NCBI RefSeq assembly: GCF_030503595.1
Contig: NZ_CP129966.1
Coordinates: 372,001-436,000, forward strand
Length of the DNA: 64,000 nucleotides
Direction: 5' to 3'
DNA from: Corynebacterium sp. P4-C1
GTDB lineage: Bacteria > Actinomycetota > Actinomycetes > Mycobacteriales > Mycobacteriaceae
The position numbers and the translations under genes were made by a program. The notes beneath the pieces were generated by a model. That model was not told the origin of the DNA. It worked only from the letters and a program-made list of their open reading frames with translations, and ran no database searches. Shown here piece by piece: positions 7,788 through 60,898 of the stretch (within the stretch, counting starts at the first letter, position 1; each line of letters opens with the position of its first letter).

Positions 7788-8225
7788 GTGAAGATCCTGG
7801 TGCTCAACGGCCCGAACCTGAACAGGTTGGGCAAGCGGCAGCCGGAGGTGTACGGCACGACCACGTTGGCGGACATTGAGAGTCACCTGCGCTCGCGCGC
7901 CGAGGAGGCGGGCACGGACATTGCGTTCTTGCAGTCCAACCACGAGGGCGAGCTTATCGACGCCGTGCACGAGGCCGCCGACAATTCCTGGCCCGTGATC
8001 ATCAACCCCGGCGGCTTCACCCACACCTCTGTGGCGCTGCGTGACGCTCTGGTGGAGCTGCAGGACGGCCCCGGCTTCATAGAAGTCCACATCTCCAACG
8101 TCCACGCACGTGAACCGTTCCGCCACCACTCGTACCTTTCGCCGATTGCCGCCGGCGTCATCGCCGGGCTCGGCACCGACGGCTACGACATGGCGCTCGA
8201 CTACTTCCTGAGGAGGGCTAAGTAA
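7788..8225 (+). CDS. aroQ: 3-dehydroquinate dehydratase, type II
   Basis: Dehydrates 3-dehydroquinate to 3-dehydroshikimate. The type II signature is complete: [17 protein letters not shown] with the catalytic Arg and Tyr, [23 protein letters not shown], and [17 protein letters not shown] with the active-site His. Length is 145 aa. The GTG start at 7788 follows GAGGAGG. The stop codon abuts the pepQ ATG directly. Confidence 0.96.
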
Positions 8226-9317
8226 ATGAGCTTTGCAGATTCCCGCTTTCTCACCCGCCGCCGCAAACTGTCCGCGAAGCTCGCGGCTCAGCGGATCGAC
8301 TCGTTCCTGCTCACGGACCCCACGAATGTGCGCTATTTCTCCGGTTTCAGCGGTTCCAACGGCGCGCTGCTGATGAACAAGGACCTCTCGGCCGCGATCG
8401 CCACTGACGGCCGGTACACCACCCAGATCGCCGAGGAAGTCCCCGACATCGATGCGATCATCGAGCGTGAGGCAGGCACCGCGGTCCTGGCGACAGTGCC
8501 GGAAGGGTGGCGCGTCGGCTTCGACCCCACCAGGGTGACGGTGGACGAGCTCGAGCGGCTGGACAAGGCCACACCCGATTCGGTGGCACTCGTCCCAGTG
8601 AAGGGTGTGGTCGAGCAGATCCGGCTGCTCAAGGACAGCTTTGAGTTACACCGCCTCGAGGACGCCGCGAAGATTGCCGTTGACGCGCTCGCGCAGCTTA
8701 TCGACGCCGGCGAGCTGCGTGCCGGCCGCACCGAGAAAGAGGTCGCCGCCGACCTCGAACACCGGATGCGTTTGCTCGGTTCGGAGCGTGTCAGCTTCGA
8801 CACCATCGTCGCGTCGGGGCCGAATTCGGCGCTTCCGCACTACGCCGCCGGGGACCGTGAGCTCACCGATGGGGACCTGGTCACCATCGATTTCGGCGCG
8901 CACTACGTCGGCTTCAATTCGGACATGACCCGCACGTTCTGCATAGGTGAACCGAGCGACTTCAACCGGGAGATCTACGAGATCGTCCTGCAGGCGCAGA
9001 AAGCCGGTGTCGCCGCCGCGACACCGGGCCGCCCGCTCGTCGACGTCGATAAGGCCTGCCGTGACATCATCACCGAGGCTGGCTACGGCGATTATTTCGT
9101 GCACTCCACCGGCCACGGCATCGGGCTGGAAGTGCATGAGGGGCCGGCCGCGTCGACACGCGCTCAGGGCGTGCTCGAAGAGAACATGACGCTGACCATT
9201 GAGCCCGGCATCTACGTGCCCGGCAAGGGCGGCGTGCGCATCGAAGACACCCTGATCATCACCTCCGGTGCGCCGAAAGTGATCACGCCCGCGCCGAAGG
9301 AACTGACCATCCTGTAG
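8226..9317 (+). CDS. pepQ: Xaa-Pro aminopeptidase / M24 metallopeptidase
   Basis: A cytoplasmic peptidase cleaving bonds next to proline. It has the creatinase-like N-domain (PTNVRYFSGFSGSNG) and the pita-bread M24 domain with dinuclear metal ligands: the Asp in TIDFGAHYVGFNSDMTRTF, the His in HSTGHGIGLEVHE, and the Glu in TIEPGIYVPGKGGVRIED. Length is 363 aa. The ATG immediately follows the aroQ stop and uses AGGAGG at 8211-8216. In actinobacteria this gene normally sits between aroQ and efp, as here. Confidence 0.93.
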   Translation: MSFADSRFLTRRRKLSAKLAAQRIDSFLLTDPTNVRYFSGFSGSNGALLMNKDLSAAIATDGRYTTQIAEEVPDIDAIIEREAGTAVLATVPEGWRVGFDPTRVTVDELERLDKATPDSVALVPVKGVVEQIRLLKDSFELHRLEDAAKIAVDALAQLIDAGELRAGRTEKEVAADLEHRMRLLGSERVSFDTIVASGPNSALPHYAAGDRELTDGDLVTIDFGAHYVGFNSDMTRTFCIGEPSDFNREIYEIVLQAQKAGVAAATPGRPLVDVDKACRDIITEAGYGDYFVHSTGHGIGLEVHEGPAASTRAQGVLEENMTLTIEPGIYVPGKGGVRIEDTLIITSGAPKVITPAPKELTIL

Positions 9318-9362
9318 GTAAACCCGGGGCTATGACCGTGCGGCCCAGCGCGGGCCGTGGTG

Positions 9363-9368
9363 TAGCAT
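9363..9368 (+). promoter_or_regulatory. Candidate -10 hexamer TAGCAT for efp
   Basis: TGTAGCAT fits an extended TAnnnT -10. Transcription would begin near 9375, about 40 nt upstream of the efp GTG at 9415, leaving room for its AAGGGAG ribosome binding site. Confidence 0.4.
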
Positions 9369-9414
9369 AGCCATGTTTGAATCACCCACCGAGCCGAAAA
9401 TAAGGGAGAATATC

Positions 9415-9978
9415 GTGGCAACGACCGCTGATTTCAAGAACGGCCTTGTGCTCAAGGTTGACGGCAAGCTGCAGCAGATCATCGAGTTCCAGCACGTCAA
9501 GCCGGGCAAGGGCCCCGCGTTCGTGCGCACGAAGCTCAAGGATGTCGTCTCCGGCAAGACTGTCGACAAGACTTGGAACGCCGGCGTGAAGGTGGAGACC
9601 GCGACGGTGGACCGCCGCGACATGACCTACCTGTACAACGACGGCACCAATTACGTCGTCATGGACGACAAGACCTTCGAGCAGTACGAGCTCGGCGAGG
9701 ACAAGTTCGGCGATGCCGCACGTTTCCTGCTGGAGAACATGCGCGTGCAGGTTTCCTTCCACGACGGTGAGGCACTCTTCGCCGAGCTGCCGATTTCCGT
9801 GGACCTGAAGGTGGAGCACACCGATCCGGGCCTGCAGGGCGACCGTTCCACCGGCGGCACCAAGCCGGCCCAGCTGGAGACGGGCGCTGAGATCCAGGTG
9901 CCGCTGTTCATCGAGACCGGCAACGTGCTCAAGGTCGACACACGCACCGGCGAGTACCTCTCCCGCGTCAACAACTAA
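9415..9978 (+). CDS. efp: Translation elongation factor P
   Basis: Binds ribosomes stalled on polyproline and stimulates peptide bond formation. The 187-residue protein starts [18 protein letters not shown], as in other corynebacteria, and contains the [18 protein letters not shown] loop, the TYLYNDG segment and the C-terminal [11 protein letters not shown] and [10 protein letters not shown] blocks. GTG 9415 is preferred to the upstream in-frame ATG at 9373: it has AAGGGAG upstream and yields the conserved N-terminus. A hairpin terminator follows. Confidence 0.96.
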
Positions 9979-9990
9979 GACGCACGAATG

Positions 9991-10023
9991 AAGGTGGATC
10001 CGCTCGGATCCACCTCATTTTTC
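9991..10023 (+). terminator. Rho-independent terminator after efp
   Basis: GGTGGATCC (9993-10001) and GGATCCACC (10006-10014) are perfect 9-bp arms around a GCTC loop, followed by TCATTTTTCC. It separates efp from nusB, which begins 28 bases after the T-run. Confidence 0.88.
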
Positions 10024-10050
10024 CCTGCACCTTCTTTCTTGGTTGAGAAA

Positions 10051-10749
10051 ATGCCTGATTACAAACGTCATGGTGCGCGCTACCGTGCGCGCCGCCGCGC
10101 AGTAGACATTCTCTTCGAGGCGGAGACCCGCGACATCGATCCCGTCTCCATCGTCGAGGACCGTGCCGCATTAGCCCAGGACCCGGCGAATGCGGTGGCC
10201 CCTGTCGCTGACTACACGCGCGAGATCATCGCTGGCGCCGCCGAGAATCTCGACGAGATCGACGATTCCATCGAGCGCTTCTTGTCCGAGAACTGGGAGC
10301 TAAACCGTCTCCCGGCAGTCGATCGCGCGATCCTCCGCGTTGCCACGTGGGAGATCCTCCAAAATGACGATGTCGCCCCGGCGATCATCATCGCCAACGC
10401 CATGGAGATGTCCACGGAATACGCCGGGGACAACGCCTCGCCGTACATTCACGCTGTCCTCGACGACATCATCCAGGCCAACGCCGCTGAGGCCCCGGAG
10501 ATGGTGACCTCCCCGCCAGGCGCCGGTGTTGACACCGCCGATGATGAGTTCGGTACCGCCAATGAGTTTGATTCCGGCGATGAGCGGGGTGCGGAAGCTC
10601 CGCAGTTCAGTCCCGAAGTCGCTCCCGAGGTCACCGAATCCACCGAGCTCTCCGGTGGCACAGCGTGGATCGGGCTGAATCCGGAAGCCGAGCAGCCGGA
10701 AGCCGAGCAGCCGGAGACGAATGCACCGGCGGCAGAAGAGAAGGAATAG
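10051..10749 (+). CDS. nusB: Transcription antitermination factor NusB with long acidic tail
   Basis: Binds NusE/S10 and boxA RNA in rRNA antitermination complexes. The NusB fold spans about residues 1-147: [12 protein letters not shown] at the N-terminus, [16 protein letters not shown] in the middle, and INP-type block YIHAVLDDI near its end. The remaining 85 residues are acidic and low-complexity, with a perfect EAEQP repeat just before the C-terminus. Most NusB proteins end near residue 150. The ATG at 10051 gives the typical [15 protein letters not shown] start; the in-frame start at 9988 lies in the terminator and is rejected. It is 13 nt before the PPK2 gene. Confidence 0.93.
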
Positions 10750-10762
10750 GAGTCGCGCAGCC

Positions 10763-11611: not shown

Positions 11612-11724
11612 AGTTCCGGTGCCTCGCTCCGACATCCCGGACGGCTGGGGGCACGAATATTTCTTGATCGGTAAAGCAGCTCCGGAATGCCCGCTTTCTC
11701 GCACATGCGGGGCACACTAGATGA

Positions 11725-13805: not shown

Positions 13806-13809
13806 CTCG

Positions 13810-14568
13810 ATGGCCATCATTGAATTGCGGGACATCACCAAGTCCTACGGCAGTTTCGACGCTCTCCGCGGGGTCGACCTCGACATCGAGGAAGGCGAAG
13901 TCACGTGTGTCCTCGGCGACAACGGCGCGGGCAAGTCGACGTTGATCAAGATCCTCGCGGGATTGCACGAGCCGACGAGCGGAGAGCTGCTTATCGACGG
14001 CTCCCCGGTCACCTTCTCCTCACCCCGCCAGGCCATTGATGCGGGCATTGCGACGGTCTACCAGACCTTGGCAGTGGTGGATGAGCTGAGCGTGTGGCGG
14101 AATTTCTTCCTCGGCCAGGAACTAACCGGCGCATTCGGGGTGCTCAAACAGGAGGAGATGAAACGCATCTGCTCCGAGCAGTTGCTGGAGATGGGAATCG
14201 ACATCCCCGACGTGAATGTGGAGGCCGGGAACCTCTCCGGGGGCCAGCGCCAGGTCGTCGCGATTGCCCGCGCAGTCTATTTCGGTGCCCGCGTGGTGGT
14301 GCTCGACGAGCCCACCGCGGCACTTGGCGTGAAGCAATCGGGCGTGGTGCTCAAGTTCATCGCTTCAGCACGGGACCGTGGAGTGGCCATCGTTTTTGTC
14401 ACCCATAACCCGCATCACGCGCACATGGTGGGGGACCACTTCACCATTTTGAAGCTCGGACGCCAGGAGTTGAACGCCTCCCGCGATGAGGTGACACTCG
14501 ACGAGCTGACCCGCGAAATGTCCGGCGGAGCCGAGCTCGACGCGCTCAGCCACGAGCTGCGGAATTAA
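13810..14568 (+). CDS. Sugar-type ABC transporter ATP-binding protein (single domain)
   Basis: Energises the importer. Walker A is GDNGAGKST at residues 36-44; the signature is LSGGQRQ and Walker B is VVVLDEPTAAL, with the switch His in VFVTHN. It is a single ATPase domain of 252 aa, unlike the fused 500-residue RbsA type, so it must act as a homodimer as in FrcA-type systems. The ATG at 13810 follows a GGAGG at the permease end. The next gene is convergent, so the operon ends here. Confidence 0.92.
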   Translation: MAIIELRDITKSYGSFDALRGVDLDIEEGEVTCVLGDNGAGKSTLIKILAGLHEPTSGELLIDGSPVTFSSPRQAIDAGIATVYQTLAVVDELSVWRNFFLGQELTGAFGVLKQEEMKRICSEQLLEMGIDIPDVNVEAGNLSGGQRQVVAIARAVYFGARVVVLDEPTAALGVKQSGVVLKFIASARDRGVAIVFVTHNPHHAHMVGDHFTILKLGRQELNASRDEVTLDELTREMSGGAELDALSHELRN

Positions 14569-14615
14569 TTCCCCCGAGTCCGCCAAGGCCCGCCGAGATC
14601 CACCACGTCCCATAC

Positions 14616-21697: not shown

Positions 21698-25060
<3,363 letters not shown>

Positions 25061-25918
25061 ATGAGCGTGCAGGACACACCGCGCAACTTCGGTAACCGTC
25101 TCGTCGCGGCGGGGGAGGAATACGGCCGGCTCTGCGTCGGCATCGATCCCCACGAGGGGCTCCTCAACGCCTGGGGCTTGTCCCAGGATGTCGCCGGGCT
25201 CAGGGAGTTCTCACTCCGTTGCGTCGAGGCCTTCGCCGGCCACGTCGCCCTGATCAAGCCCCAGGTGGCGTTCTACGAGCGGTTCGGTTCCGCCGGCTTC
25301 GCGGTGCTCGAGGAGACACTTGAGCAGCTACGGGGCAGCGGTTCCCTGGTCGTGGCGGACGCGAAGCGCGGGGATATCGGCTCGACCATGGAGGGGTATG
25401 CCCTTGCGTGGTTGGACGCGAATTCACCGCTGTGCTGCGATGCGGTGACGCTGACTCCGTACCTCGGTGTCGGCTCGCTCACACCGGCGATCGAGCTCGC
25501 CGGTCGGGAGAACCGGGGTGTGTTCGTCATGTCCGCCAACTCCAACCCGGAAGCCGAAGCCTTCCAGGGGCAGACCCTCAGCGGCAGTGGTGTCACCGTG
25601 GCGCAGCAGATGGTGGACGAGTGCGCGGAATTCAACGTCGATAAGCGCGCCTCGCACAGCGGGGACACGCCCTACGTCGGGCACGTGGGCGTTGTGGTCG
25701 GTGCGACTGTGGCGTCCCCGCCGCGTCTCGAGGACCTCAATGCGCCGGTGCTCATGCCGGGCGTGGGCGCGCAGGGCGCGACGATGGAAAATGTGGCGCG
25801 GATCGCCGGAAAGCAGTCCCACCTTGTCTTCCCGAATGTCTCGCGCTCCGTTCTGTCCGCCGGTCCCGATGTTGCTGACCTGCGGAAAGCGGCGAAATCG
25901 CTGGTTGTGTCGGGCTAG
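25061..25918 (+). CDS. pyrF: Orotidine 5'-phosphate decarboxylase, type 2
   Basis: Decarboxylates OMP to UMP. The active-site motif is VADAKRGDIGSTMEGYA, the Asp-Lys-Asp tetrad site of the longer type 2 enzymes found in actinobacteria. The N-terminal LCVGIDPHEGLLNAWGL and the C-terminal VLMPGVGAQGATMENV phosphate-binding segment also fit. Length is 285 aa. It is the last gene of the pyr operon and starts at the base after the carB stop. pyrD and pyrE are not in this window. Confidence 0.96.
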   Translation: MSVQDTPRNFGNRLVAAGEEYGRLCVGIDPHEGLLNAWGLSQDVAGLREFSLRCVEAFAGHVALIKPQVAFYERFGSAGFAVLEETLEQLRGSGSLVVADAKRGDIGSTMEGYALAWLDANSPLCCDAVTLTPYLGVGSLTPAIELAGRENRGVFVMSANSNPEAEAFQGQTLSGSGVTVAQQMVDECAEFNVDKRASHSGDTPYVGHVGVVVGATVASPPRLEDLNAPVLMPGVGAQGATMENVARIAGKQSHLVFPNVSRSVLSAGPDVADLRKAAKSLVVSG

Positions 25919-30118: not shown

Positions 30119-31372
30119 ATGAGCCCAGAGCCCAGTGAGAACACCCGCAGCCCACGCAACGTCGTCGTCGGAGTCGCAGGAGGCATCGCCGCATACAAGG
30201 CCTGCCACCTTATCCGCGAATTCACCGAGGACGGAGATGATGTCCGGGTGGTTCCCACACCGGCGGTACTGAACTTCGTGGGCGCGGCGACCTTCGAGGC
30301 GCTGTCCGGAAACCCGGTCGATACAGACGTGTTCTCCCGCGTGGACGAAGTCCAGCATGTGCGCGTGGGTAAGGAAGCTGATGTGATTGTTATCGCCCCC
30401 GCAACGGCGGACACCATTGCGCGCATCGCCGCCGGTCGTGCGGATGATCTCCTGACCGCGACGGTCCTGGTGGCCACCTGTCCCGTGGTACTCGCCCCCG
30501 CAATGCATACGGAAATGTGGGAAAACCCCGCCACCCAAGACAACGTGGCCACGCTGCGTCGCCGCGGCGTGATCGTGCTGGAACCGGCGCACGGGCGGCT
30601 AACCGGCACAGACACCGGCGCCGGCCGGATGCTCGAGGCGGTACAGATCGCGGAGATGGCCAGGACGGTGCTTGAGGTTGGGCTGTTCACCCGGACACTG
30701 GAGGGCAAGAAGGTCGTCATCAGCGCGGGCGGAACGCAGGAGAATATCGACCCTGTGCGCTTCATTGGCAACCGCTCCTCAGGACGCCAAGGCTTCGCCC
30801 TCGCCGACATTGCCGCGCATCGCGGCGCGCACGTCACTGTCGTCGCCGGCGATACCGAATCGCTGGACACTCCACCGGGGGCGGAAGTCGTGCACGTCCG
30901 CTCCACCCGCGACATGCAAAAAGCCGTGGATGCGGCTGCGGCGGACGCCGACATCGTCATCATGGCGGCGGCGGTCTCCGACTACCGCCCGGAAAATGAA
31001 GCGACGTCGAAACTGAAGAAGGGCCAGTCCGACGATGCACTATCCAACCTGAGGATGGTGGAGAACCCGGACATTTTGAAGGAGCTCGTCGATAAGCGCG
31101 CTGCGGGGGAGACAAACGCGACCATCGTCGGCTTCGCGGCGGAGACCGACAACCCCCTCGAATACGGCAAGGCGAAGCTGGAGCGCAAGGGCGCGGACAT
31201 GCTCATGGTCAACTCCGTCGCGGGCGGCGCGGTATTCGGGGAAATGCGCAACAGCGGTTGGCTGATCAACCGCGACGGGGATGTGGAGGAGATCGCCGAC
31301 GGGCCGAAGCACGTGGTCGCCGCGCGGATCTGGGATGCGATTGAGGCGATGACTGTAAACACACGGAAATAG
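30119..31372 (+). CDS. coaBC: Bifunctional phosphopantothenoylcysteine decarboxylase / phosphopantothenate-cysteine ligase
   Basis: Catalyses two steps of coenzyme A synthesis. The FMN-binding CoaC half starts with VVVGVAGGIAAYKACHLIREF and holds the substrate loop APAMHTEMWENPA; the CoaB half starts at VVISAGGTQENIDPVRFIGN (cut for length), with SSGRQGFALA and the KLKK segment. The loop has His where Escherichia coli Dfp has the Asn of PAMN; I recall the same His in mycobacterial enzymes. Length is 417 aa. ATG 30119 is preferred to an in-frame start at 30017 that would overlap the previous gene. Confidence 0.94.
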   Translation: MSPEPSENTRSPRNVVVGVAGGIAAYKACHLIREFTEDGDDVRVVPTPAVLNFVGAATFEALSGNPVDTDVFSRVDEVQHVRVGKEADVIVIAPATADTIARIAAGRADDLLTATVLVATCPVVLAPAMHTEMWENPATQDNVATLRRRGVIVLEPAHGRLTGTDTGAGRMLEAVQIAEMARTVLEVGLFTRTLEGKKVVISAGGTQENIDPVRFIGNRSSGRQGFALADIAAHRGAHVTVVAGDTESLDTPPGAEVVHVRSTRDMQKAVDAAAADADIVIMAAAVSDYRPENEATSKLKKGQSDDALSNLRMVENPDILKELVDKRAAGETNATIVGFAAETDNPLEYGKAKLERKGADMLMVNSVAGGAVFGEMRNSGWLINRDGDVEEIADGPKHVVAARIWDAIEAMTVNTRK

Positions 31373-38752: not shown

Positions 38753-40206
38753 GCGGAGGATTCCGGTCGCGCACCAAGCGCGCGAAAGAGCAGGCTGAGC
38801 AAGAAGCGCTGCACGGCCCGAAGAAACGGGCGCCGCAGCGTGACGGCGCCACACGCCACCAGCCGTCGTCCTCGTCGCCCGACATCGGAGATGTCGCCCG
38901 CCAGGCCGCTTTCGATGCAGTGCTGAGGGTGGAGACCGAAGACGCGTTCGGCAACCTTGTCCTGCCGCAGATTCTGCGCGAGCGGCGCATCACGGGCCGC
39001 GACGCGGCGTTCGCCACTGAGATCGCCTACGGCACGCTGCGCACCATGGGTGTGCTCGACACGGTGGTCGCGGAGTGCTCTTCGCGTCCGCTCGCCGATC
39101 TCGACCCGGCGGTGCTCACAGCATTGCGGCTGGGTGCGTACCAGGTGTTGTTCACGCGTGTCGACGACCACGCCGCCGTCGATACCTCAGTCCGTCTCGC
39201 CGAGGCTGCTGGTGCGGGGAAAGCCAAGGGCTTCGTCAACGGGATTCTGCGCACCATCACGCGCACGACTCCCCGGGAGTGGATGGAAATGCTCGCCCCG
39301 GAAGGGGAGATCGCGGCCACGGCGTTCCGCACAGCGCACCCGGAATGGATCGCGCGGTCTTTCGCCGCAGTCGTCGGGGAGGATGAGCTCGAAGCGGCGC
39401 TGGAAGCAGATTCGCAACGCCCGATCGTGCATCTCGTCGCACGTCCGGGTGAGATGTCCGCAGAAGAGCTTGCACTGGTCACAGGTGGGGAGGAAGGCCG
39501 CTACAGCCCGTACGCCGTCTACCTTGCCGAGGGCGGCGACCCCGGATCGCTGGAGCCCGTGCGCGAGAAAATGGCCGCGGTGCAGGACGAGGGATCGCAG
39601 CTCATCGCCCGGGCCGTCGCGGAACTCGCTGTCACTGACGATGCCGGTCGATGGCTGGACCTGTGCGCGGGCCCGGGCGGTAAGGCGGCGCTCATGGGCT
39701 CGCTCGCTTCCATTGACGGTGCGGCCGTCGACGCGGTGGAGATCACCCCGACACGCGCCGACCTCATCCGCAAATCCACCGAGGGCCTGCCGGTCACAGT
39801 CCACGTCGCTGACGGCCGCGACTCGGGCCTTGAGCCGGGGTACGACCGCGTGCTCGTCGACGCCCCATGCTCCGGTCTTGGTGCCCTCCGCCGCCGCCCC
39901 GAGGCCCGCTGGCGCAAGAGTGAAGCGGACATTGCCGAGCTCACCGGGCTGCAGTCCGAACTCCTCGCATCGGCTGTGAAGCTCGCCAAGCCGGGCGGGG
40001 TCATTGTCTACTCGACGTGCTCGCCGGATGAGAGGGAGACGAGGAGAATCGTCGATAAGCAGCTCGCCCAAGGCGATGTCGAGGAGATCGACGTGCGCGG
40101 GGTCCTGCCGCAGATGGGCGACCTCGGGCCGCATCTGAGCGCGCAGATGTGGCCGCACCGCCACGGCACCGACGCGATGTTCCTTGCTGCCCTACGGAAG
40201 CGATAG
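38749..40206 (+). CDS. rsmB: 16S rRNA m5C967 methyltransferase-like protein (Fmu/RsmB)
   Basis: Transfers methyl groups to 16S rRNA cytosine. The N-terminal NusB-like domain (ARQAAFDAVLRVETEDAF, LRLGAYQVLFTRVDDHAAV) is followed by the catalytic domain with DLCAGPGGKAALM (SAM-binding), DAPCSGLGALRRRPEARW and STCSPDERE, which supply the two conserved catalytic cysteines. Length is 485 aa, with a basic 45-residue N-terminus (KKRAPQRD region). GTG 38749 overlaps the fmt stop. Confidence 0.95.
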   Translation: MSGGFRSRTKRAKEQAEQEALHGPKKRAPQRDGATRHQPSSSSPDIGDVARQAAFDAVLRVETEDAFGNLVLPQILRERRITGRDAAFATEIAYGTLRTMGVLDTVVAECSSRPLADLDPAVLTALRLGAYQVLFTRVDDHAAVDTSVRLAEAAGAGKAKGFVNGILRTITRTTPREWMEMLAPEGEIAATAFRTAHPEWIARSFAAVVGEDELEAALEADSQRPIVHLVARPGEMSAEELALVTGGEEGRYSPYAVYLAEGGDPGSLEPVREKMAAVQDEGSQLIARAVAELAVTDDAGRWLDLCAGPGGKAALMGSLASIDGAAVDAVEITPTRADLIRKSTEGLPVTVHVADGRDSGLEPGYDRVLVDAPCSGLGALRRRPEARWRKSEADIAELTGLQSELLASAVKLAKPGGVIVYSTCSPDERETRRIVDKQLAQGDVEEIDVRGVLPQMGDLGPHLSAQMWPHRHGTDAMFLAALRKR

Positions 40207-42524: not shown

Positions 42525-43772
42525 ATGACGGACACCCTGCGACTCGATTCAGTTGAAGACGCTGTTGCGGCGGTCGGCCGCGGTGAAGCGGTCGTGGTGG
42601 TGGACGACGAAGACCGCGAGAACGAAGGCGACCTGATCTTCGCCGCCGAGCACGCCACCCCCGAACTCGTCGCGTTCATGGTGAGGTATTCCTCCGGCTA
42701 CATCTGCGTGGCAATGGAGGACGAGGCGGCCACCCGCCTGGAGCTGCCTCCTATGGTGGCTGTCAACGAAGACGCGCGCAGCACCGCCTACGCCGTCACT
42801 GTCGACGCGGCCACCGGCACCACCGGTATTTCAGCGCGTTCCCGTGCGGAGACAATTCAGCGTCTCGCCGACCCGGCGCGCACCGCCGCTGATTTCACCC
42901 GCCCGGGCCACGTTGTTCCGCTGCGCGCCCGCCGCGGCGGAGTTCTCGTGCGCGACGGGCACACCGAAGCATCGGTCGACTTGGCCCGCCTGGCCGGGTG
43001 TCAGCCAGCCGGCGCATTGTGCGAGATCGTCTCCGAGGACGACCCGACGGACATGGCGCGCGGGGAAGAACTCCGCCGTTTCGCCGACGAGCATCGGCTG
43101 AAGATGATTTCCATCGCCCAGCTCATCGCGTACCGCCGCCGCACCGAACGCATTGTCGAGCGTGTCGTGGAGACATCGCTGCCGACCACGTACGGCCCCT
43201 TCACGGCGTACGGCTACAAATCGCTTATCGACGCCTCCGAGCACATCGCCCTCGTCACCGGCGATGTCGCCGGCGGAGACGAAGTATTGGTGCGCGTGCA
43301 CTCTGAATGTCTGACCGGCGATGTCTTCGGCTCCCTGCGGTGCGACTGCGGGCCGCAGCTGCACGAGTCCATGCGCCTCATCCAGGAGGCCGGTCGCGGC
43401 GTGATCGTCTACGTCCGCGGCCACGAAGGGCGCGGCATCGGGCTGGCGGCGAAACTTCAGGCTTACCGCCTCCAAGAGGAGGGGTTGGACACCGTGGACG
43501 CCAACGTCGAGCAGGGGTTGCCGGTGGATGCGAGGGAATATTCCGTCGCCGGCCAGATTCTCGCGGATCTCGGCGTGGCCTCCATGAACTTGCTGTCCAA
43601 CAACCCGGACAAGGTGGAGGCGCTGAGCGGCTACGGCCCGGTTGTGTCAGGCCGGACCCGCGTCGAGATCGTGCCCTCGCACGAGAACATCGCCTACCTC
43701 CGCACCAAGCGCGACCGGATGGGGCACGATCTCCCTTCAGTCGATGAGTGGGATGTGACGTATGGCAACTAG
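42525..43772 (+). CDS. ribBA: Bifunctional 3,4-DHBP synthase / GTP cyclohydrolase II
   Basis: Makes both precursors of lumazine. The N-terminal half has the DHBP synthase motif [18 protein letters not shown] and [12 protein letters not shown]; the C-terminal half has the zinc motif [19 protein letters not shown] and [12 protein letters not shown] of GTP cyclohydrolase II. Length is 415 aa. ATG 42525 is preferred over the longer frame from 41679, which is a shadow of ribD and ribE. It is 74 nt before ribH. Confidence 0.96.
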
Positions 43773-44376: not shown

Positions 44377-44958
44377 ATGGACGGTTTGGGTACAAGCGCG
44401 CAAGGCACGCAAGGCGCAGAGGACGCACGGGCACACGGCCCCGTTGGCGCAACCGCCAACGACCGCGATGTCGCTTTTTTCAACGCGCTCGACCCCCACG
44501 CCGTCACCTCGTCGAAGCCGTGGGAGATCGAGATCGTCTCGCATTTCCTGCGGCGTGTCGCCGTCGTCGCCGTCGTCGTGATCATGGCGGCCCACATCTT
44601 CGCCGGTGTGGTGGTGGACGATGAGTTCACCGGGGCGGCGATCACGACCGTCGATAAGTTCGCTTTCCCGGCGATCGGCCTGATTTTGTCGGTCTGCGTG
44701 TGGTTGGCGCTTTCCCGCCCGCGTGTGCGCGCCAACGAAGACGGCGTGGAAGTGCGCAACATCATCGGCACCCGCTTCTACCCGTGGGTCGTCATCTATG
44801 GGCTGTCTTTCCCACGCGAATCCCGCATGGCGCGACTCGAGCTCCCCGAATTCGAGTACGTTCCGCTCTGGGCGATCCAGTCGGGGGACAAGGAACGCGC
44901 GATCGAATCCGTCAAGGCATTCCGCCGGCTCGAAGCCCGCTATATGCCGGAAGACTAG
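44377..44958 (+). CDS. PH-domain-like membrane protein
   Basis: Function unknown. 193 aa: a hydrophilic N-terminus of about 55 residues, two membrane helices (VAVVAVVVIMAAHIFAGVVV and FPAIGLILSVCVWLAL), and a bacterial PH-like domain (VRANEDGVEVRNIIGTRFYP, YGLSFPRESRMARLELPE). This lipid-bilayer-anchored arrangement is typical of a family common in actinobacteria. It is placed 11 nt after ribH and 12 nt before uvrC. ATG 44377 is preferred to a TTG at 44359 inside the ribH end. Confidence 0.78.
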   Translation: MDGLGTSAQGTQGAEDARAHGPVGATANDRDVAFFNALDPHAVTSSKPWEIEIVSHFLRRVAVVAVVVIMAAHIFAGVVVDDEFTGAAITTVDKFAFPAIGLILSVCVWLALSRPRVRANEDGVEVRNIIGTRFYPWVVIYGLSFPRESRMARLELPEFEYVPLWAIQSGDKERAIESVKAFRRLEARYMPED

Positions 44959-49999: not shown

Positions 50000-50126
50000 A
50001 CGCGCGGAACCCCCTCTAGCAGCTACGGCTGCGGCACCCCTATCTGCCGTAACGACGCTGGCTGGGCGGGGAAGAGCGGGGCCCGGGGAGCGTCGAAAAG
50101 CGTCTGCAGGGGAGAGAGCATTTCTC

Positions 50127-51323: not shown

Positions 51324-52544
51324 ATGGCTGTACGTTCCATCGACGAGCTGCTCAAAGAAGGCGTCGACGGGCGCCACGTGCTCGTCCGCTCCGACTTCAA
51401 CGTCCCGCTCGACGACGACGGCAACATCACGGACGCGGGCCGCATCGACGCGTCGCTGCGCACCATCAAGGCGCTTATCGACGGTGGCGCAAAGGTCATC
51501 CTCACCGCCCACCTCGGCCGCCCCAAAGGTGAAGTGAACCCGAAGTATTCCCTCAAGCCTGTCGCAGAGGCCCTGTCCGAGAAGCTCGGCCAGTACGTCG
51601 CCCTGGCATCTGACGTCACCGGCGAGGACGCTCACGAGCGTGCCAACGGCCTGTCCGAAGGCGATGTGCTCCTCGTCGAGAATGTGCGTTTCGACGCCCG
51701 CGAGACCTCTAAGGACGAGTCCGAGCGCGGCACCTTCGCCGACGAGCTCGCTGCCCTCGCCGCAGATAACGGCGCCTTCGTCTCCGACGGATTCGGTGTC
51801 GTCCACCGCGCGCAGGCATCCGTCTACGACGTTGCTAAGCGTCTGCCCGCCTACGCCGGTTACCTGGTCCAGGACGAGGTGGAAAAGCTCGCCTCCGTCA
51901 AGGAAAACCCGACCTCCCCGTACGTCGTCGTTCTCGGCGGCTCCAAGGTATCCGACAAGCTGGGCGTCATCGAGGCGCTGGCCGAGAAGGCTGACAAGGT
52001 CATCATCGGCGGCGGCATGTGCTACACGTTCCTCACCGCACAGGGCCACAACACCCAGGCCTCCCTGCTGCAGGAGGAGATGGTGGACACCTGCAAGGAG
52101 CTGATCGAGAAGTACGGCGACAAGATTGTTTTGCCGGTCGACCTCGTCGCGGCCTCCGAGTTCGACAACGACGCTGACCGCAAGGTCGTCGACCTCGACG
52201 GCACCCCGGAGGGCTGGATGTCCCTCGACATCGGCCCGGAGACCGCAAAGAAGTACGCCGAGATCATCGCCGACTCCAAGACCGTGTTCTGGAACGGCCC
52301 GATGGGCGTGTTCGAGAAGTCCAACTTCGCCGACGGAACCCGCGCGGTCGCCCAGGCCATGATCGACGCCACCGCGAACAACGGTTCCTTCACCGTGGTC
52401 GGCGGCGGCGACTCTGCCGCATCCGTGCGCACTCTCGGCCTTAACGATGACGGCTTCTCCCACATCTCCACCGGCGGCGGCGCTTCCCTCGAGCTCGTCG
52501 AAGGTAAGGAACTTCCGGGCGTTGCAGTCCTGGAACAGAACTAA
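51324..52544 (+). CDS. pgk: Phosphoglycerate kinase
   Basis: Transfers phosphate from 1,3-bisphosphoglycerate to ADP. Motifs are [48 protein letters not shown] and [11 protein letters not shown]. Length is 406 aa. It has AAGGAG upstream and is 20 nt from tpiA. Confidence 0.97.
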
Positions 52545-52564: not shown

Positions 52565-53350
52565 ATGGCACGCACACCACTCATTGCCGGTAACTGGAAG
52601 ATGAACCACGACCACCTCGAGGCCATCTCCCAGGCGCAGCGCCTCGCATTCGCCCTGCCGGGCGACTACTACGAGGACGTCGACGTGGCGCTCACCGTCC
52701 CCTTCACCGACCTGCGCTCCCTGCAGACCCTGGTCCAGGGGGACAAGCTGAAGATCACCTACGGTGCCCAGGACGTCTCCGCCCACGAGTCGGGCGCCTA
52801 CACCGGTGAAGTCTCCGCCGCGATGCTGGCGAAGCTCGATTGCACCTGGGTCGTCGTCGGCCACTCCGAGCGCCGCGACTACCACAATGAGTCGAACGAG
52901 CTCGTCGCCGCTAAGGCCAAGGCAGCACTCGACAACGGTATCAGCCCGATCGTGTGCGTCGGTGAGCCCTTGGAGGTGCGGGAGGCAGGGGAGCAGGTGG
53001 ATTTCGTCGTCAAGCAAACGCGCGAATCTCTCGCTGGCCTGTCCACCGAGAAACTCTCGAAGACCGTGATCGCCTACGAGCCCGTGTGGGCCATCGGCAC
53101 CGGCAAAAGCGCCTCCGCAGAGGACGCGCAGGAGATCTGCGCCGCCATCCGCGGCCTCATCGCCGAGCTTGCCGACGACACCGTCGCCTCCTCCATCCGC
53201 ATCCTCTACGGCGGGTCCGTGAAGGCCGACACTATCGCCGACATCATCGGCCAGCCCGATGTCGACGGCGGCCTCGTCGGCGGCGCATCCCTCGACGGTA
53301 ACGACTTCGCCAAGCTCGCCGCCGCCGCAGGCGACGCCGTCCGCGCCTAG
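52565..53350 (+). CDS. tpiA: Triosephosphate isomerase
   Basis: Interconverts dihydroxyacetone phosphate and glyceraldehyde-3-[19 protein letters not shown] (catalytic His) and [14 protein letters not shown] (catalytic Glu) are present, then [11 protein letters not shown]. Length is 261 aa. In C. glutamicum the next gene is ppc; here secG follows directly after 106 nt. Confidence 0.97.
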
Positions 53351-53391: not shown

Positions 53392-53398
53392 AGCTTCG

Positions 53399-53747: not shown

Positions 53748-53751
53748 CATG

Positions 53752-53761
53752 CTTATCGACG
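53752..53761 (+). repeat. CTTATCGACG motif, intergenic copy
   Basis: One of 13 exact copies of this 10-mer in the window, here between the secG terminator and the DnaA-box repeat. It lies in no gene, so codon usage cannot explain it. Confidence 0.7.
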
Positions 53762-53783
53762 CCTCCCGCAACCCCTCCCTTGC

Positions 53784-53828
53784 AATTCTGTGGATAAGTC
53801 TTTTCTTGGGTGGGTTATCCACAGAATT
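53784..53828. repeat. Inverted pair of consensus DnaA boxes
   Basis: AATTCTGTGGATAA (53784-53797) and TTATCCACAGAATT (53815-53828) are perfect 14-bp arms with a 17-bp spacer. Each arm holds a consensus DnaA box (TTATCCACA, in opposite orientations). The pair lies 48 bases before the HNH gene. As RNA it could also form a long hairpin followed by a short U-run. Confidence 0.85.
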
Positions 53829-53862
53829 TTCACGCGCGCTTTTTCGGGGTTGCTGTTCTGTT

Positions 53863-53868: not shown

Positions 53869-53875
53869 GTGGGTC

Positions 53876-54967: not shown

Positions 54968-54990
54968 CCACGCGGGTCAGGCATGTTTAC

Positions 54991-55130
54991 GGCCACTTCG
55001 GTGCGCGACTTTCACGACGCGGCAATCAGGCACGCCCACCGGCCGCTTCGGTGCGCCCGAAAGTACGGCGCAGCGTCGACGCAGTTCACGCAGTTAACGG
55101 ATGACAACCGGCCGCTTCGGCGAGCCCGAA
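54991..55130 (+). repeat. Three degenerate direct repeats downstream of the HNH gene
   Basis: The core GGCCRCTTCGGTGCG occurs at 54991 (GGCCACTTCGGTGCGCGA) and 55041 (GGCCGCTTCGGTGCGCCCGA), with a third variant, GGCCGCTTCGGCGAGCCCGA, at 55110. TCAGGCA precedes the first two copies. They fill most of the gap between the convergent HNH and GDPD genes. Confidence 0.7.
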
Positions 55131-55131
55131 T

Positions 55132-56268
55132 CTAGCGGGAGTAGTCCACGGACTGCTCGTCGAGGATCGTCTTCAGCATCGTCGGGTAGTCGGTGATGAT
55201 GCCGTCGACGCCCGCCTCGATCTGTCCGCGCATGGTGGCTTCGTCGTTGACAGTCCACGGGATGACGCGGAGCCCGGCGTCGTGAGCTTTTTGGATGTAT
55301 TCGGGGGTGGCGACGGGGTTGTAGTCGTCGTCGCCGGCTTCGGCGTCGCTGGGCACGGAATAGCCGGGGGAGAGAACTGCGGCCCCGATGTGCCGAGCGG
55401 CTTCGACGATATCGCCGCCGACAGAGTCGTAGTCAACATCGCCGGTCCAGGGGGAGTCGGGGACCCAGGTGGTGTCGTCGTAAAGCATGATGAGCGGAAC
55501 GTCCGGGTTCTTCTCGCGCACGAGCGGGAGGCTGCGCCAGTCGAAGGATTGAATCATGAGGCGGTCAGTCGTGCCAGCCTCATCGGCGGCGGCGAGGATC
55601 GCGTCGACGAATTCCTGGGGTTCGGCGGACTTGTCGCGCTCCTCGGCCTCGATTTTCGTCTCGATGTTGAAGTAGACGTCGTCGTCACTCGATGCCAGCT
55701 CGAACAGCTCGGGGAGATCGATGAGCTTATTGCCGTCGACCGGTACTTGGTCGGGGAAGTCCTCGAGCTTGACGTCGCATTCGAGGGTCTGGAGTTGCTC
55801 CCACGTGAGGTCGTGAACCAGCTTTCCAACGTACGGGAACTGCTCATCGTCCGCCTCGACCGGCTCGGTGTCGCGGCATTTATCAGTCTGAATCTCCGGG
55901 TCGTGCCAGACGACGGGCACACCGTCGGCCGACATGACGATATCGAGCTCGAGGGTGGTCACGCCCATCGCGAGGGATTCTTCGAAGGCTGTGCGGGATT
56001 CCTCGGTCCATTCGCCGCGCCCGCCGCGGTGCGACTGGAGGTCGAAGTTCGGCGGAAGATTCGCATTGCTTATCGACGCCCCGTCCCCCGCCTCCGCAGA
56101 CACCGTCCCCGCTGCCTGCGAGGAGGATTCGGTGGGTTGTTCACTTGCCGGTTCGGCGTTGTCAGATGGGCTGCAGGCCGTGAGCGCGAGTGTGGTGGGC
56201 AGTAGGAGGGCGAGGGCGCCACGGGCGGCGGTAGTGCGGGTGTTGGCGCGGGAAGAACGGTTCCGCAT
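55132..56268 (-). CDS. Glycerophosphodiester phosphodiesterase-family lipoprotein
   Basis: Predicted to hydrolyse glycerophosphodiesters outside the membrane. The signal peptide ends in the lipobox LALTAC with Cys32; a Ser/Glu/Ala linker follows. The GDPD signature is present: QSHRGGRGEW (H80, R81), LELDIVMSADGVPVVWHDP (metal Glu107, Asp109; His122), and later an FNIETK-type segment, ending with VIPWTVNDEATM and GVDGIITDYP. The usual ENT motif reads EES here. Length is 378 aa. ATG 56268 has GGAGAG upstream. The substrate is not known. Confidence 0.88.
   Translation of the reverse strand: MRNRSSRANTRTTAARGALALLLPTTLALTACSPSDNAEPASEQPTESSSQAAGTVSAEAGDGASISNANLPPNFDLQSHRGGRGEWTEESRTAFEESLAMGVTTLELDIVMSADGVPVVWHDPEIQTDKCRDTEPVEADDEQFPYVGKLVHDLTWEQLQTLECDVKLEDFPDQVPVDGNKLIDLPELFELASSDDDVYFNIETKIEAEERDKSAEPQEFVDAILAAADEAGTTDRLMIQSFDWRSLPLVREKNPDVPLIMLYDDTTWVPDSPWTGDVDYDSVGGDIVEAARHIGAAVLSPGYSVPSDAEAGDDDYNPVATPEYIQKAHDAGLRVIPWTVNDEATMRGQIEAGVDGIITDYPTMLKTILDEQSVDYSR
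56069..56078 (+). repeat. CTTATCGACG motif inside the GDPD linker
   Basis: This copy falls in the third reading frame relative to most others (codons TCG ATA AGC on the coding strand) and uses the rare Ile codon ATA. Confidence 0.6.
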
Positions 56269-56404
56269 AGGTATCTCTCCAAGTCGGTGCTGTTGTGTGT
56301 GCAAGTAAATGCACTGCCCGATGGTAGAGATCCGGCCGGGGGAGCGCCGTGCAGTGTTCAGACATGCCGATGTGTTCCGAACCGGCACGCTCTAGTGAGG
56401 GGGG

Positions 56405-57133: not shown

Positions 57134-57170
57134 TGCTATCGCTCCTTCAAAAACTGGCTATCTAACGACT

Positions 57171-58106
57171 CTAGACAAAATTCACTTCCGACAGTGACCG
57201 CAGCGCCTGCGAATACGCCCAGTCGGGGTCGAGGTGGCGGAGTTCCTCGGACAAGCAGTCGGCGTCGCTGCGTGTGCTCATGGCGACGAACGAGTCCGGC
57301 AGCCCCGGGGCCTGCACACGGAGGGTCTTGTCGTCCTTGACGCTCACGCACACTGGCCCGGAGGCGCGCTGCAAGGATAGACGGCGGACGGGGAACAGAC
57401 GGGAGGGCTCAGACTTGGTCGTTTCGCTGCAGATCCGGTTGACCGGCGCGTCGAGGGCCGACGCCAGCCACGCCGCGGCGATATCGACACTCGGGTCATC
57501 TGCGGGCCCATCGATTTCCACGGAGGCGACGGGTTCGTGAGGGTAGCGGTCGAGCGCGGAGGCGACGACGCCGCGCCAGTGCGTGATCCGGGACCACAGC
57601 ATGTCGGAGTCGCCGGGGCAGTAGCCGTTGGCGAGGCGCATGAGGGTGTTGCCGTCGACGTCCTCCCGGGCGTTCGTGATGCGGCGATGCGCGAGTTGCC
57701 CGAGCGGGTGCTCGGCTGGGCGCGCGGGAGCGGTCGACGGCCACCACGCGACAACGGGGGTGTCCGGTAGCAAAAGAGGCGTGACGACGGATGCGAGGTT
57801 ATTCGCCAACTCCCCGTGCAAGTCCATCACGATGATCTCCGAAGCCCCGGCGTCATCTGCGAGGATGGCCTGGGCATCGAGGATGTTTTCCCCTTCGGGG
57901 TTGCCGGTGATCAGCATGAGCACGCGTGAGGGGTGCTCGTGGGAGGCGGTGCGGACGTGGTCGAGGATGGATTCCACGTCGTCGTGGATGTCGGCGACGA
58001 CGATGAGGGTGAGCACGCGACCGGTGGCCAGGGAGTAGTTCTCTTGGGTGTCCAGCAGCAGTTTCGTGATCTTGCGCGTGGACGTGTCGGACATGGTGAT
58101 GATCAT
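57171..58106 (-). CDS. opcA: OpcA, glucose-6-phosphate dehydrogenase assembly/allosteric factor
   Basis: Required for active glucose-6-phosphate dehydrogenase in actinobacteria and cyanobacteria. The 311-residue protein has the OpcA phrases VLTLIVVADIHDD, VLMLITGNP, LLLPDTPVVAWWPS and WSRITHWRGVVASALD. It lies 24 nt after zwf, so the enzyme and its partner are made together. The ATG at 58106 follows AGGAGA; a second ATG at 58094 is possible. Confidence 0.95.
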   Translation of the reverse strand: MIITMSDTSTRKITKLLLDTQENYSLATGRVLTLIVVADIHDDVESILDHVRTASHEHPSRVLMLITGNPEGENILDAQAILADDAGASEIIVMDLHGELANNLASVVTPLLLPDTPVVAWWPSTAPARPAEHPLGQLAHRRITNAREDVDGNTLMRLANGYCPGDSDMLWSRITHWRGVVASALDRYPHEPVASVEIDGPADDPSVDIAAAWLASALDAPVNRICSETTKSEPSRLFPVRRLSLQRASGPVCVSVKDDKTLRVQAPGLPDSFVAMSTRSDADCLSEELRHLDPDWAYSQALRSLSEVNFV

Positions 58107-58130
58107 GTGTGACTCTTCTCCTGCGGAGGA

Positions 58131-59672
58131 CTAGGGGCGGCGCCAGGTGCGTCCGTGGGCAGCCATCATTTGGTCGGCGGTTGCCGGGCCCCAGGTGCCG
58201 GCGGCGTATTCGTCGGGGCGGCCGTTGGCGGCCCAGTAATCGAGGATGGGGTCGAGGATCTCCCAGCTTCGTTCGACTTCGGAGGCGGTGGGGAAGAGGC
58301 CGGTTTCGTCGAGAAGCGCGTCGAGGATGAGGCGCTCGTACGCTTCCGGCGACTCTTCGGTGAAGGCCTCGGTGTAGGAGAAGTCCATGTTGACGTCGCG
58401 GACTTCCATGGTGGAGCCGGGGACCTTGGAGCCGAAGCGCAGCAGGATTCCCTCGTCCGGCTGCACGCGGATGACGAGGGTGTTGGCGCCGAGCTGACTG
58501 GTCAACCCCGGGCCGAATGCCTCGTGGGGCGCTTTCTTGAATACGAGGGCGATCTCGGTGACGCGACGGCCGAGGCGTTTTCCGGTGCGCAGGTAGAACG
58601 GCACGCCCGCCCAGCGGCGGGAATTCACGCCGAGGGTGCACGCGGCGTAGGTTTCGGTGGTGGACTCGGGGTCGAAGCCCTCTTCCTCACGCAGCCCGAC
58701 AACCTGTTCCGAGCCCTGCCATCCGGCGGTGTACTGGCCGCGGGCGGTGGTTTCCTCGAACGGGCCGATGGGCTTGGTGGCGCGCAGGATCTTGAGCTTC
58801 TCGTAGCGCAGCTGGCGGGGCGAGAAGGAGACAGGCTCATCCATGGCCACCAGGGCAAGGAGCTGGAGGAGGTGGTTCTGGATCACATCGCGGGCAGCGC
58901 CGATGCCGTCGTAGTAGCCGGCGCGGCCGCCGAGCCCGATGTCTTCGGCCATGGTGATCTGGACGTGGTCGACGAATTGGGCGTTCCACAGCGGTTCGAA
59001 CATCTGGTTGGCGAACCGCATGGCCAGGATGTTCTGGACGGTCTCTTTGCCGAGGTAGTGGTCGATGCGGAACACGGCGCGCTCGGGGAAGACGGAGTTG
59101 ATCGTCTCGTTGAGCTCGCGGGCAGTGGCGAGGTTGTGGCCGAAGGGCTTTTCGATGATTACGCGCCGCCACTGCCCCTCGGACGCTTGCGCCATGCCGG
59201 TGCGGTCGAGCTGGTCGATGACGTTGGCGAAGTAGTCCGGCGGCACGGACAAGTAGAAGGCCCAATTGCCGGCGGTGCCGCGGGTGGCGTCCATGTGCTT
59301 GAGCAGGTCGGCCATGCTGTCGAAGGCTTCGTCGTCGTCGAAGGCGCCTTGGACGAAGTGCATGCCTTCGGCGAGGCGGGACCAGACGTGCTCGTCGAAG
59401 TCGGTGCGAGCACCGGCCTCGACCTGCTCGCGGACGTAGGACTCGAAATCTTCTTTCGACCAGGGGCGTCGGCCGAAGCCAACGAGCGTGAAACCGGCGG
59501 GCAGGAGACCGCGGTAGGCGAGGTCGTAGATGGCGGGAAGGAGCTTCCGTTTGGCCAGGTCGCCGGTCACGCCGAAAATGACCATGCCGGACGGCCCGGC
59601 GATCCGCGGCAGCCGCCGGTCAGCGTGGTCGCGGAGGGGATTCTTCCATTCTTCGGGTGCCAGATTCGACAC
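58131..59672 (-). CDS. zwf: Glucose-6-phosphate dehydrogenase
   Basis: Entry enzyme of the oxidative pentose phosphate pathway. Motifs are [18 protein letters not shown] (nucleotide binding), the active site [13 protein letters not shown], and IEKPFGHNL. Length is 513 aa. The GTG start at 59672 has GAAAGG upstream. It follows tal by 116 nt, a gap with an unusual AT-rich inverted repeat. Confidence 0.97.
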
Positions 59673-59737
59673 AGGCGTGGGCCTTTCGTCTGGTGGGCGG
59701 TGGTGCGCCGCGAAGTGGGTACCGTCGCGGCTACATG

Positions 59738-59768
59738 GTCAATTAAGAAGATTAAACCTTAAATTGAC
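59738..59768. promoter_or_regulatory. AT-rich inverted repeat between tal and zwf
   Basis: GTCAATT-AAG and CTT-A-AATTGAC pair around AAGATTAAAC, in a 31-bp block that is about three quarters A+T within a GC-rich region. On the coding strand it lies just past the tal stop and about 65 nt before the zwf GTG. It may be an operator, a promoter element (TAATCT is a possible -10) or a weak terminator. Confidence 0.45.
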
Positions 59769-59788
59769 GGCCGCGATGAAGGAATCGG

Positions 59789-60865
59789 CTATTTCAGGTT
59801 CTCGAGCATAGAATCGAGCAGTTCTTGCCAGGCGTCGACGAACTTGTCGACGCCTTCGCGTTCGAGGACGGCGACGACGTCGTCAAGCTCGATGCCGACT
59901 GTGGCGAGCTGCTCGAAGACCGTGCGCGCCTCGTCGGCGGTTCCGGTGAGGGTGTCTCCGTGCACGTTGTCGCCGTTGAGGACGGCGTCGATGGTCGGCT
60001 CCGGCATGGTGTTGACGGTGTCCGGCCCGGCGAGCTCGATGACGTACATGTCGGCGGGGTAGTCCGGATTCTTCACACCAGTCGACGCCCACAGGGGGCG
60101 CTGCTTGTTCGCGCCCTCTGGGAGGTCGCCGAGGGAATCGAGGAAGAGCTGGTACGCCAGACGCGCGTTGGCGATGCCGGCTTTGCCCTTGAGCGCGCGG
60201 GCTTCGTCGGTGCCGATGGCGTCGAGGCGGTTGTCCACCTCGGTGTCCATGCGGGAGACGAAGAAGGAAGCGACGGAGTGGATCGCGGACACGTCGTGGC
60301 CGTTGGCGGCGGCCTGCTCGATGCCGGCGACGTAGGCGTCGATGACCTGCTTGTAGCGCTCGACGGAGAAGATCAGAGTCACGTTGACCGAGATGCCCTC
60401 GGCGAGCGCCTGCGTGATCGCGGGCAGGGAGGCGTCGGTGGCGGGGATCTTGATCATCACATTGGGGCGGTCGACGAGCGCCCAGAGTTCTTTCGCGTGG
60501 GCGACGGTAGCTGCTTCGTCGTCGGCGTGGCGCGGGTCGACCTCGATGGACACGCGGCCGTCCTGTCCGCCGGTGGCGTCGTAGACGTCGCGGAAGAGGT
60601 CGCAGGCGTCCTGGACGTCCTTGACGCTCATTGCGTAGACGGCTTCGTCGACGCCGACCTTGCCAGCTTTGAGTTCGGCGATCTGTTCGTCGTAGGCGGT
60701 GCCGGACGACATGGCTTTGGCGAAAATCGCCGGGTTGGTGGTCACGCCGGCCAGCGATTTCGCGGCTTTGATCTCGGCGAGGTTGCCCGACACGATGCGC
60801 TCGCGCGACAGGTCGTCGAGCCAGGTGGAGGTGCCGGCTTCAGCAAGACGGTCAATTGCGGTCAT
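59789..60865 (-). CDS. tal: Transaldolase
   Basis: Transfers a dihydroxyacetone unit in the non-oxidative pentose phosphate pathway. The Schiff-base Lys lies in [30 protein letters not shown] and [12 protein letters not shown] are conserved. Length is 358 aa, typical of the actinobacterial class. AAAAGGAGC precedes the ATG. It is 47 nt after tkt. Confidence 0.96.
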
Positions 60866-60888
60866 GGGTAGCTCCTTTTCGCTTTTCG

Positions 60889-60898
60889 CTTATCGACG
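60889..60898 (+). repeat. CTTATCGACG motif, intergenic copy
   Basis: Second non-coding copy of the word, placed in the 47-nt gap between tkt and tal, just upstream of the tal ribosome binding site. Confidence 0.7.

Follow-up and report, generated by a model that had tools for sequence, protein, structure and literature searches.

The genome of Corynebacterium sp. P4-C1 carries, dispersed along both strands, an oriented DNA element of about 44 bp, which consists of the 11-bp core GCTTATCGACG followed, on one side only, by a tail in which one strand is poor in G. Its core is a G followed by the 10-mer CTTATCGACG, a word that had attracted attention in an earlier reading, made from the sequence alone, of a 64-kb window of this genome (bases 372001–436000 of the single 2,313,418-base contig NZ_CP129966.1). 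The word element is real, oriented, and lineage-restricted. By analogy with the DNA uptake sequences (DUS) of Neisseriaceae and the uptake signal sequences (USS) of Pasteurellaceae, it quite possibly, if not yet probably, marks Corynebacterium DNA as self.

The window contains 13 exact copies of CTTATCGACG, against 0.09 expected from dinucleotide shuffles (13 was reached in 0 out of 100). Allowing one mismatch raises the count to 38 sites (3.9 expected), the exact copies among them. The sequence-only reading had placed all 13 copies correctly, in coordinate and strand. It was also right about the expected number (about 0.1), the 8:5 orientation, and the G that precedes 11 of them (the exceptions are 9044, preceded by C, and 44649, preceded by A). 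The near-matches that it listed exist, but they start slightly off the positions given, at 23144, 34000, 34217, and 63891. Over the whole genome (2.31 Mb) there are 517 copies, 256 on the plus strand and 261 on the minus strand, and 3 of the reversed word that served as control. Strong genome-wide over-representation at the level of DNA is a trait of DUS and USS, and CTTATCGACG displays it.

Such an excess might arise as a by-product of codon usage or mutation bias, since two frames hold most of the coding copies (90 out of the 101 that lie inside called genes). As a control, which is conservative since it retains the rare codons brought in by the word itself, we shuffled synonymous codons 40 times in 395 genes called crudely in a 484-kb sample. 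The 10-mer was observed 102 times (shuffled mean 7.9, maximum 14) and the 11-mer 95 times (mean 4.4, maximum 8), i.e., 13- to 22-fold over the shuffles. Copies outside called genes (in the window, 4 in one crude gene calling and 2, at 53751 and 60888, in another; the sequence-only reading had counted two) have the same tail, and other GC-rich genera lack the enrichment. The shuffles, the nongenic copies, and the other genera already refute this explanation, which we regard as practically dismissed. The enrichment thus withstands both the genome-wide count and the codon-aware comparison, it is not confined to a single amino acid frame, and the signal put forward from the sequence alone stands.

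We studied the anatomy of the element in 464 kb of the genome's own sequence (the window and 20 evenly spaced stretches). A G precedes the 10-mer in 94% of the 125 copies with usable flanks. Across 126 copies, the composition changes only 3' of the word, where C climbs to a share of about 0.5 and G drops to about 0.18, with A and T almost unchanged. At 40 bases from the first base of the 10-mer, C and G have both returned close to the genome average. A larger pool of 735 core sites, drawn from 584 kb of own sequence and from 33 loci in further genomes that share its dialect of the word (short and word-poor loci excluded), was used to look at third codon positions. There, the share of C in C+G is 0.62–0.95 between +11 and +44, counted on the 11-mer, and fluctuates about 0.56 further out. 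Inspection of this pool by eye showed no 10-bp period in the tail. We considered a polypyrimidine tail and rejected it, because T does not rise and C alone replaces G.

The tail is alike in copies that lie in gene sense, in antisense, and outside called genes, and it is found in every codon frame; among 132 copies, the three largest classes, with 53, 37, and 29 members, have C fractions of 0.52, 0.48, and 0.52. Because it occurs in all codon frames, on both gene strands, and between genes, the signal resides in DNA, as the sequence-only reading had argued. The similarity of the tails in sense, antisense, and intergenic copies also led us to reject an RNA-level signal resembling the Rho utilisation (rut) sites. 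That reading had not noticed the one-sided tail of about 33 nt with C in place of G, nor two features described below, namely the dialects of different species and the tendency of copies in the same direction to avoid each other at short range.

To see which letters of the core are tolerated, we counted all 33 single-letter changes to GCTTATCGACG in the 584 kb. The perfect core is present 139 times (2.1 expected). Changes of the fifth letter from A to G, T, or C are frequent (41, 32, and 27 copies, against 2.7, 1.2, and 2.9 expected), as are those of the first T to G (20 against 0.9) and to C (6 against 0.5), and the enriched variants at both places likewise have the tail. Changes of the sixth letter give 4 copies each (0.2–0.4 expected), and those within CGA or at the final G never more than one. 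The degenerate core family reaches 366 sites in 464 kb, against 22 for reversed controls, i.e., about one per 1.3 kb.

These properties bear on the idea that the word is the host mark of a modification or defence system, acting through methylation of the word or avoidance of self-cutting, in the manner of the highly iterated palindrome HIP1 or of restriction-linked words. HIP1 and methylation-linked words are abundant and lineage-restricted, as is the Corynebacterium word, and a genus-wide yet patchy occurrence with dialects would fit such a mark. Words of the HIP1 type are, however, palindromic, whereas the core GCTTATCGACG is not and its tail is one-sided and directional. Tolerance of any fifth letter and a tail of 33 nt also fit a methylase site poorly, which makes a host mark very unlikely.

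Among 151 genomes of Corynebacterium (P4-C1 included), 149 have at least one copy of the word and 100 have at least 40, with a maximum of 711. In a family-level draw of 151 genomes, the 140 rows from outside the genus all have 25 copies or fewer, and in a phylum-level draw of 246 genomes, none apart from P4-C1, which has 493 copies of the 11-mer, exceeds 11. We compared named species over one locus of up to 21 kb each, around the ATPase of the Tad pilus. The word family is dense in the loci of C. urinipleomorphum (16), C. haemomassiliense (16), and C. bouchesdurhonense (11), and sparse in those of C. pygosceleis (2) and C. otitidis (1); the Tad ATPase loci of other genera contain 0–5 sites, against 0–5 for the reversed controls. 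The nearest named relative, as judged by the Tad ATPase, is C. urinipleomorphum (89% identity).

Some genomes with low counts use other words. Two of them, G006 and G111, yielded GCTTGCCGATG and GCTTGTCGATG, which are preceded by G in 91% of 32 copies and 82% of 17 copies, respectively, and followed by a C-rich tail (skew −0.33 and −0.23). This second dialect, GCTTGYCGATG, has 294–508 copies in 8 of the 151 genomes; G073 follows with 66, and no other genome exceeds 44. The first word is low in 7 of these 8. Across variants and dialects, the inner letters are invariant and the outer letters drift. Fewer than 40 copies of the first word together with at most 66 of the second are found in 44 out of 151 genomes. 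In a TadA tree of 34 rows, all six second-dialect rows (two of them labelled from a single 21-kb locus each) fall in one supported clade, with the word-less G014 inside. The other word-less rows are outside the carriers, except for G133, which is beside the carrier G098, and G132, which is unresolved in the tree. This is the tree of one protein and not of the species, and the four outgroup rows branch inside the Corynebacterium rows, with G148, G028, and G147 placed outside. Most simply, a derived part of the genus gained the word, the dialect switched once, and the word was lost several times.

We found no convincing other word in samples of 20–160 kb from the word-poor genomes G014, G039, G041, G120, G028, G203, and G147. 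Family counts are modestly above the control, and lack a clear tail, in G048 (24 versus 5), G110 (11 versus 3), and G062 (9 versus 0). Separately, G148 (L063, L064, L107, L249–L252, L148) has a weaker word, CGACGCCAC, with 21 copies in 160 kb where 3.7 are expected; a stretch of some 15 nt ahead of it is rich in T and C, and a mild excess of C follows. It is possibly a further dialect of a different build. The word-less G133 (L123, L124, L244–L248, L154) is enriched in TGCACGGTTGG and CGGGGACCCTG, among others, with 9–12 copies each in 160 kb, and these look like parts of a longer interspersed repeat unrelated to the element.

The orientation of the copies shows no replication-strand polarity. 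Taking positive GC skew as the mark of the leading strand, 36 copies are leading and 44 lagging (80 of 113 copies; 14 of the 20 stretches had a clear skew and were used), which agrees with the genome-wide balance of 256:261 and with the earlier statement that strand polarity is not strong. The copies show neither the polarity toward the terminus of the FtsK-orienting polar sequences (KOPS) nor the leading-strand bias of Chi. The balance of the strands speaks against reading the word simply as a leading-strand Chi or as KOPS. The lack of replication-strand polarity is a trait of DUS and USS, and strand balance is thus common to them and the Corynebacterium element.

The spacing of the copies does depend on orientation. 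We analysed 359 family sites of the P4-C1 genome and 378 sites in 33 loci of other genomes, with uniform placement as the expectation. Pairs in the same direction are depleted below 400 bp in both samples (18 versus 43.6 expected and 18 versus 41.9), and those in opposite directions are close to expectation (39 versus 44.0 and 40 versus 42.6). Between 400 and 800 bp, the P4-C1 sample has 33 same-direction and 34 opposite pairs, with about 43 expected of each. The same-direction deficit is seen again at 800–1500 bp (56 versus 72.9 in P4-C1 and 51 versus 71.9 in the other genomes) and has vanished by 3–5 kb. We also shuffled orientations 300 times over fixed positions, in four bins up to 1.5 kb. 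Shuffles with as few same-direction pairs make up 2.7%, 5.3%, 66%, and 1.0% for P4-C1 and 0.7%, 22%, 2.0%, and 9.0% for the other genomes. Adjacent pairs less than 1.5 kb apart comprise 80 same-direction and 125 opposite ones in one set (p = 0.002) and 74 and 125 in another (p = 0.0004). The closest pair of exact copies is 83 bp apart. This spacing suggests that same-direction copies are mutually redundant, i.e., that the element acts on one side.

One-sided action recalls Chi, and the element might be a directional recombination signal of this kind. A helicase-nuclease moving on one strand would recognise the core, the G-poor tail would aid the loading of RecA or another single-strand binder, and DNA of the own lineage would be recombined rather than degraded. 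As with Chi, the word is oriented. Its one-sided design, with a tail defined by strand composition and without visible 10-bp period, would fit a protein that reads a single strand, and the apparent redundancy of same-direction copies below about 1.5 kb is what one-sided action predicts. The Chi sites of well-studied species are, however, shorter and mostly biased toward the leading strand, whereas the Corynebacterium element is longer, composite, and free of replichore polarity. Our search of the open-licence literature on Chi, AdnAB, and RecBCD found nothing related. We consider this explanation unlikely, though a serious rival to uptake.

We hold much the same opinion of a binding site that derived lineages of Corynebacterium would have gained for a nucleoid protein or a chromosome organiser, and in which the tail would be a second contact or a strand-biased region of bending or melting. 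The genome-wide spread speaks for it, with the degenerate family slightly under-dispersed (mean 14.9, variance 12.3 per 20 kb, in 26 stretches), and so does the lineage-specific gain and loss. The exact copies are, however, slightly over-dispersed (mean 5.1, variance 7.0 per 20 kb). Known organisers with few sites, such as parS and matS, are regional, and KOPS is strand-biased; we see neither regional clustering nor strand bias. Moreover, a change of dialect and losses in single species would be unusual for an essential organiser. Such a role is unlikely, yet it too is a serious rival to uptake.

The explanation that we prefer likens the element to uptake sequences by resemblance, and we make no claim that it belongs to either known group. 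According to the portion of the source available, the DUS of Neisseriaceae count very many words per genome, and their dialects follow phylogeny around a constant inner core (PMC3630211). Abundant short words and dialects with a fixed inner core are what the Corynebacterium element shares with them, the parallel between dialects and phylogeny being drawn here from one protein tree. In the accessible passages, DUS are a continuous motif of up to about 13 nt (PMC12616744), to which the Corynebacterium element adds a 33-nt C-over-G tail, and their copy number is given as 2,245–5,918, against a lower 493 exact 11-mers. Uptake sequences of this type belong to Neisseriaceae, and the element described here is found in Actinobacteria. 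We know of no counterpart of the DUS receptor ComP in the actinobacterial carriers. USS comprise an inner core, an outer core, and AT tracts, and one USS lies about 1,000 bp from the next (PMC7811141), and an asymmetric extension of the core is known for them (PMC12616744 and PMC7811141), all as far as the excerpts of these sources go. The Corynebacterium element resembles USS in its asymmetric extension and, when degenerate copies are counted (about 1.3 kb), in its spacing. It differs in that its extension replaces G by C over about 33 nt, that its same-direction neighbours are depleted, and that close inverted pairs of terminator type are rare. Such pairs are a common rather than a defining trait of DUS and USS.

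If the element serves uptake, as had been listed among other options (recombination, chromosome organisation, and protein binding) by the sequence-only reading, which chose none, we infer that a surface receptor would bind the core on double-stranded DNA. The receptor may be a Tad minor pilin or a partner of ComEA. The C-over-G tail, G-poor on one strand, may help strand opening or threading in one direction, and the DNA would then pass through ComEA and ComEC to reach DprA, which would serve its recombination. If tagged DNA were taken up preferentially, the copies would spread and persist, and changes in the receptor would give rise to dialects. A bolder proposal, conceivable but rather doubtful, is that this is a new class of directional self-DNA signal, in which an 11-bp core read as duplex and a 33-nt G-poor tail read as single strand would direct one-sided DNA entry or recombination, with dialects setting barriers of sexual isolation across Corynebacterium.

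Judging from gene content, the genus as a whole is equipped for DNA uptake. All 151 genomes have ComEC, DprA, and ComEA (the last over the cut-off in 143), and 148 have the Tad pilus ATPase (142 over the cut-off). In P4-C1, comEA adjoins comEC and a Tad locus is present, in which we took a protein of 81 amino acids for the putative Flp pilin. In the actinobacterium Micrococcus luteus, natural transformation depends on Flp pili, according to the available part of a review (PMC6370729). The length of the ComEC reading frame correlates with the word count. The long frame is present in 30 out of 51 low-count genomes and 12 out of 99 others (G001 left out). In 12 proteins inspected, the long forms bear extra N-terminal sequence, and Pfam finds the Competence domain alone in one long and one short form. 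On these grounds we dropped the length as a functional link, and we take it for a clade marker. The ComEC of P4-C1 and of G028 (L099:9326-10888, L101:8737-11010) match no Pfam domain but Competence and show no nuclease domain of the metallo-beta-lactamase type. The match to the Tad ATPase is in two pieces in two word-positive genomes (G112:C1:297808-298844 and G101:C2:174454-175475), and the ComEA match of the word-less G148 has one internal TGA (G148:C1:674943-675134).

Several observations weigh against an uptake function. ComEC, ComEA, DprA, and the Tad ATPase are equally present in word-less genomes, and because word-less species possess the machinery too, it does not prove a tie to the word. 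No receptor candidate emerged from 20 Tad loci compared by similarity only. Uptake blind to orientation would deplete neighbours in both directions, and only same-direction neighbours are depleted; in the second dialect (22 loci, 190 sites), the same-direction effect was not seen. An inverted half-word of terminator type within 35 nt upstream accompanies only 2 of the 146 exact copies in 584 kb, and the spread of the exact copies is uneven, as given above. We found no report of natural transformation of Corynebacterium among the titles and abstract openings covered. Finally, a prophage-type locus of G023 (portal at 733151) has words on the plus strand at 732940, 747069, 748260, and 764141, a density around the portal that is at least normal and speaks against a simple exclusion of the word from phage DNA.

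Phage portal genes were found in 16 out of 151 genomes (13 over the cut-off), and we inspected the words around them in 3 of these 16 (G112, G098, and G023). In G112, which has 93 words at a mean spacing of about 26 kb, there are none near two chromosomal portals (gaps at 216.7–344.9 and 2093.2–2162.3 kb), nor on the second contig, which bears the third portal. The plus strand of G098 is free of words at 340.2–403.8 kb, a stretch that includes the portal. Depletion in phage or other foreign DNA would be expected of DUS and USS, and on this point the three genomes give a mixed picture. The three portal genes of G112 (contigs C1 and C2, one gene on the separate contig) are near-equal (E about 1e-132); this phage is present more than once, perhaps also extrachromosomally.

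The word sequences gave only unrelated matches in the open-licence literature, and no title reported an uptake-type element in Corynebacterium, both among the matches listed. As far as this literature was searched, the element is undescribed. Were it an uptake sequence, the element would, to our knowledge, have no precedent in Actinobacteria. Much of Corynebacterium would then be, or recently have been, naturally transformable, the genus would gain a genetic handle, and the dialects would predict partners in DNA exchange. Should it prove to be a directional signal for recombination or for the chromosome instead, the word would still have an unusual design, and the direction in which it acts could be tested.

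Within the window, the 13 exact copies and their 33-nt tails are as follows, with the C and G counts of the tail in brackets. On the plus strand, core and tail lie at 7952–7995 (core 7952–7962, tail 7963–7995; C14, G10), 13989–14032 (C18, G6), 43223–43266 (C15, G8), and 51473–51516 (C14, G8), at 53751–53794 (C15, G5) and 60888–60931 (C17, G4) where no gene is called, and at 56068–56111 in antisense to a called gene (C21, G6). The copy at 8696–8739 (core 8696–8706) has a tail region that is not C-rich (C12, G13). On the minus strand, the copies at 25603–25646 (core 25636–25646; C13, G6) and 31054–31097 (C12, G5) are antisense in called genes, and another is at 40017–40060 (C15, G5). The 10-mer preceded by A is followed by a tail (44616–44659; C13, G9). 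The one preceded by C, at 9011–9054, has a G-rich tail region (9011–9043; C11, G17) and is probably a weak or chance copy.

Six of the window's 24 variant sites, chosen for their good tails, illustrate the degenerate family. GCTTTTCGACG, which occurs 32 times in 584 kb against 1.2 expected, is found on the minus strand at 50058–50101 (C20, G7) and 62028–62071 (C18, G6). The minus strand also has GCTTGACGACG at 52972–53015 (C19, G3) and GCTTCTCGACG (27 versus 2.9 in 584 kb) at 58274–58317 (C16, G6). GCTTGCCGACG at 53167–53210 (C17, G4) and GCTTGTCGACG (41 versus 2.7 in 584 kb) at 63890–63933 (C17, G5) are on the plus strand.

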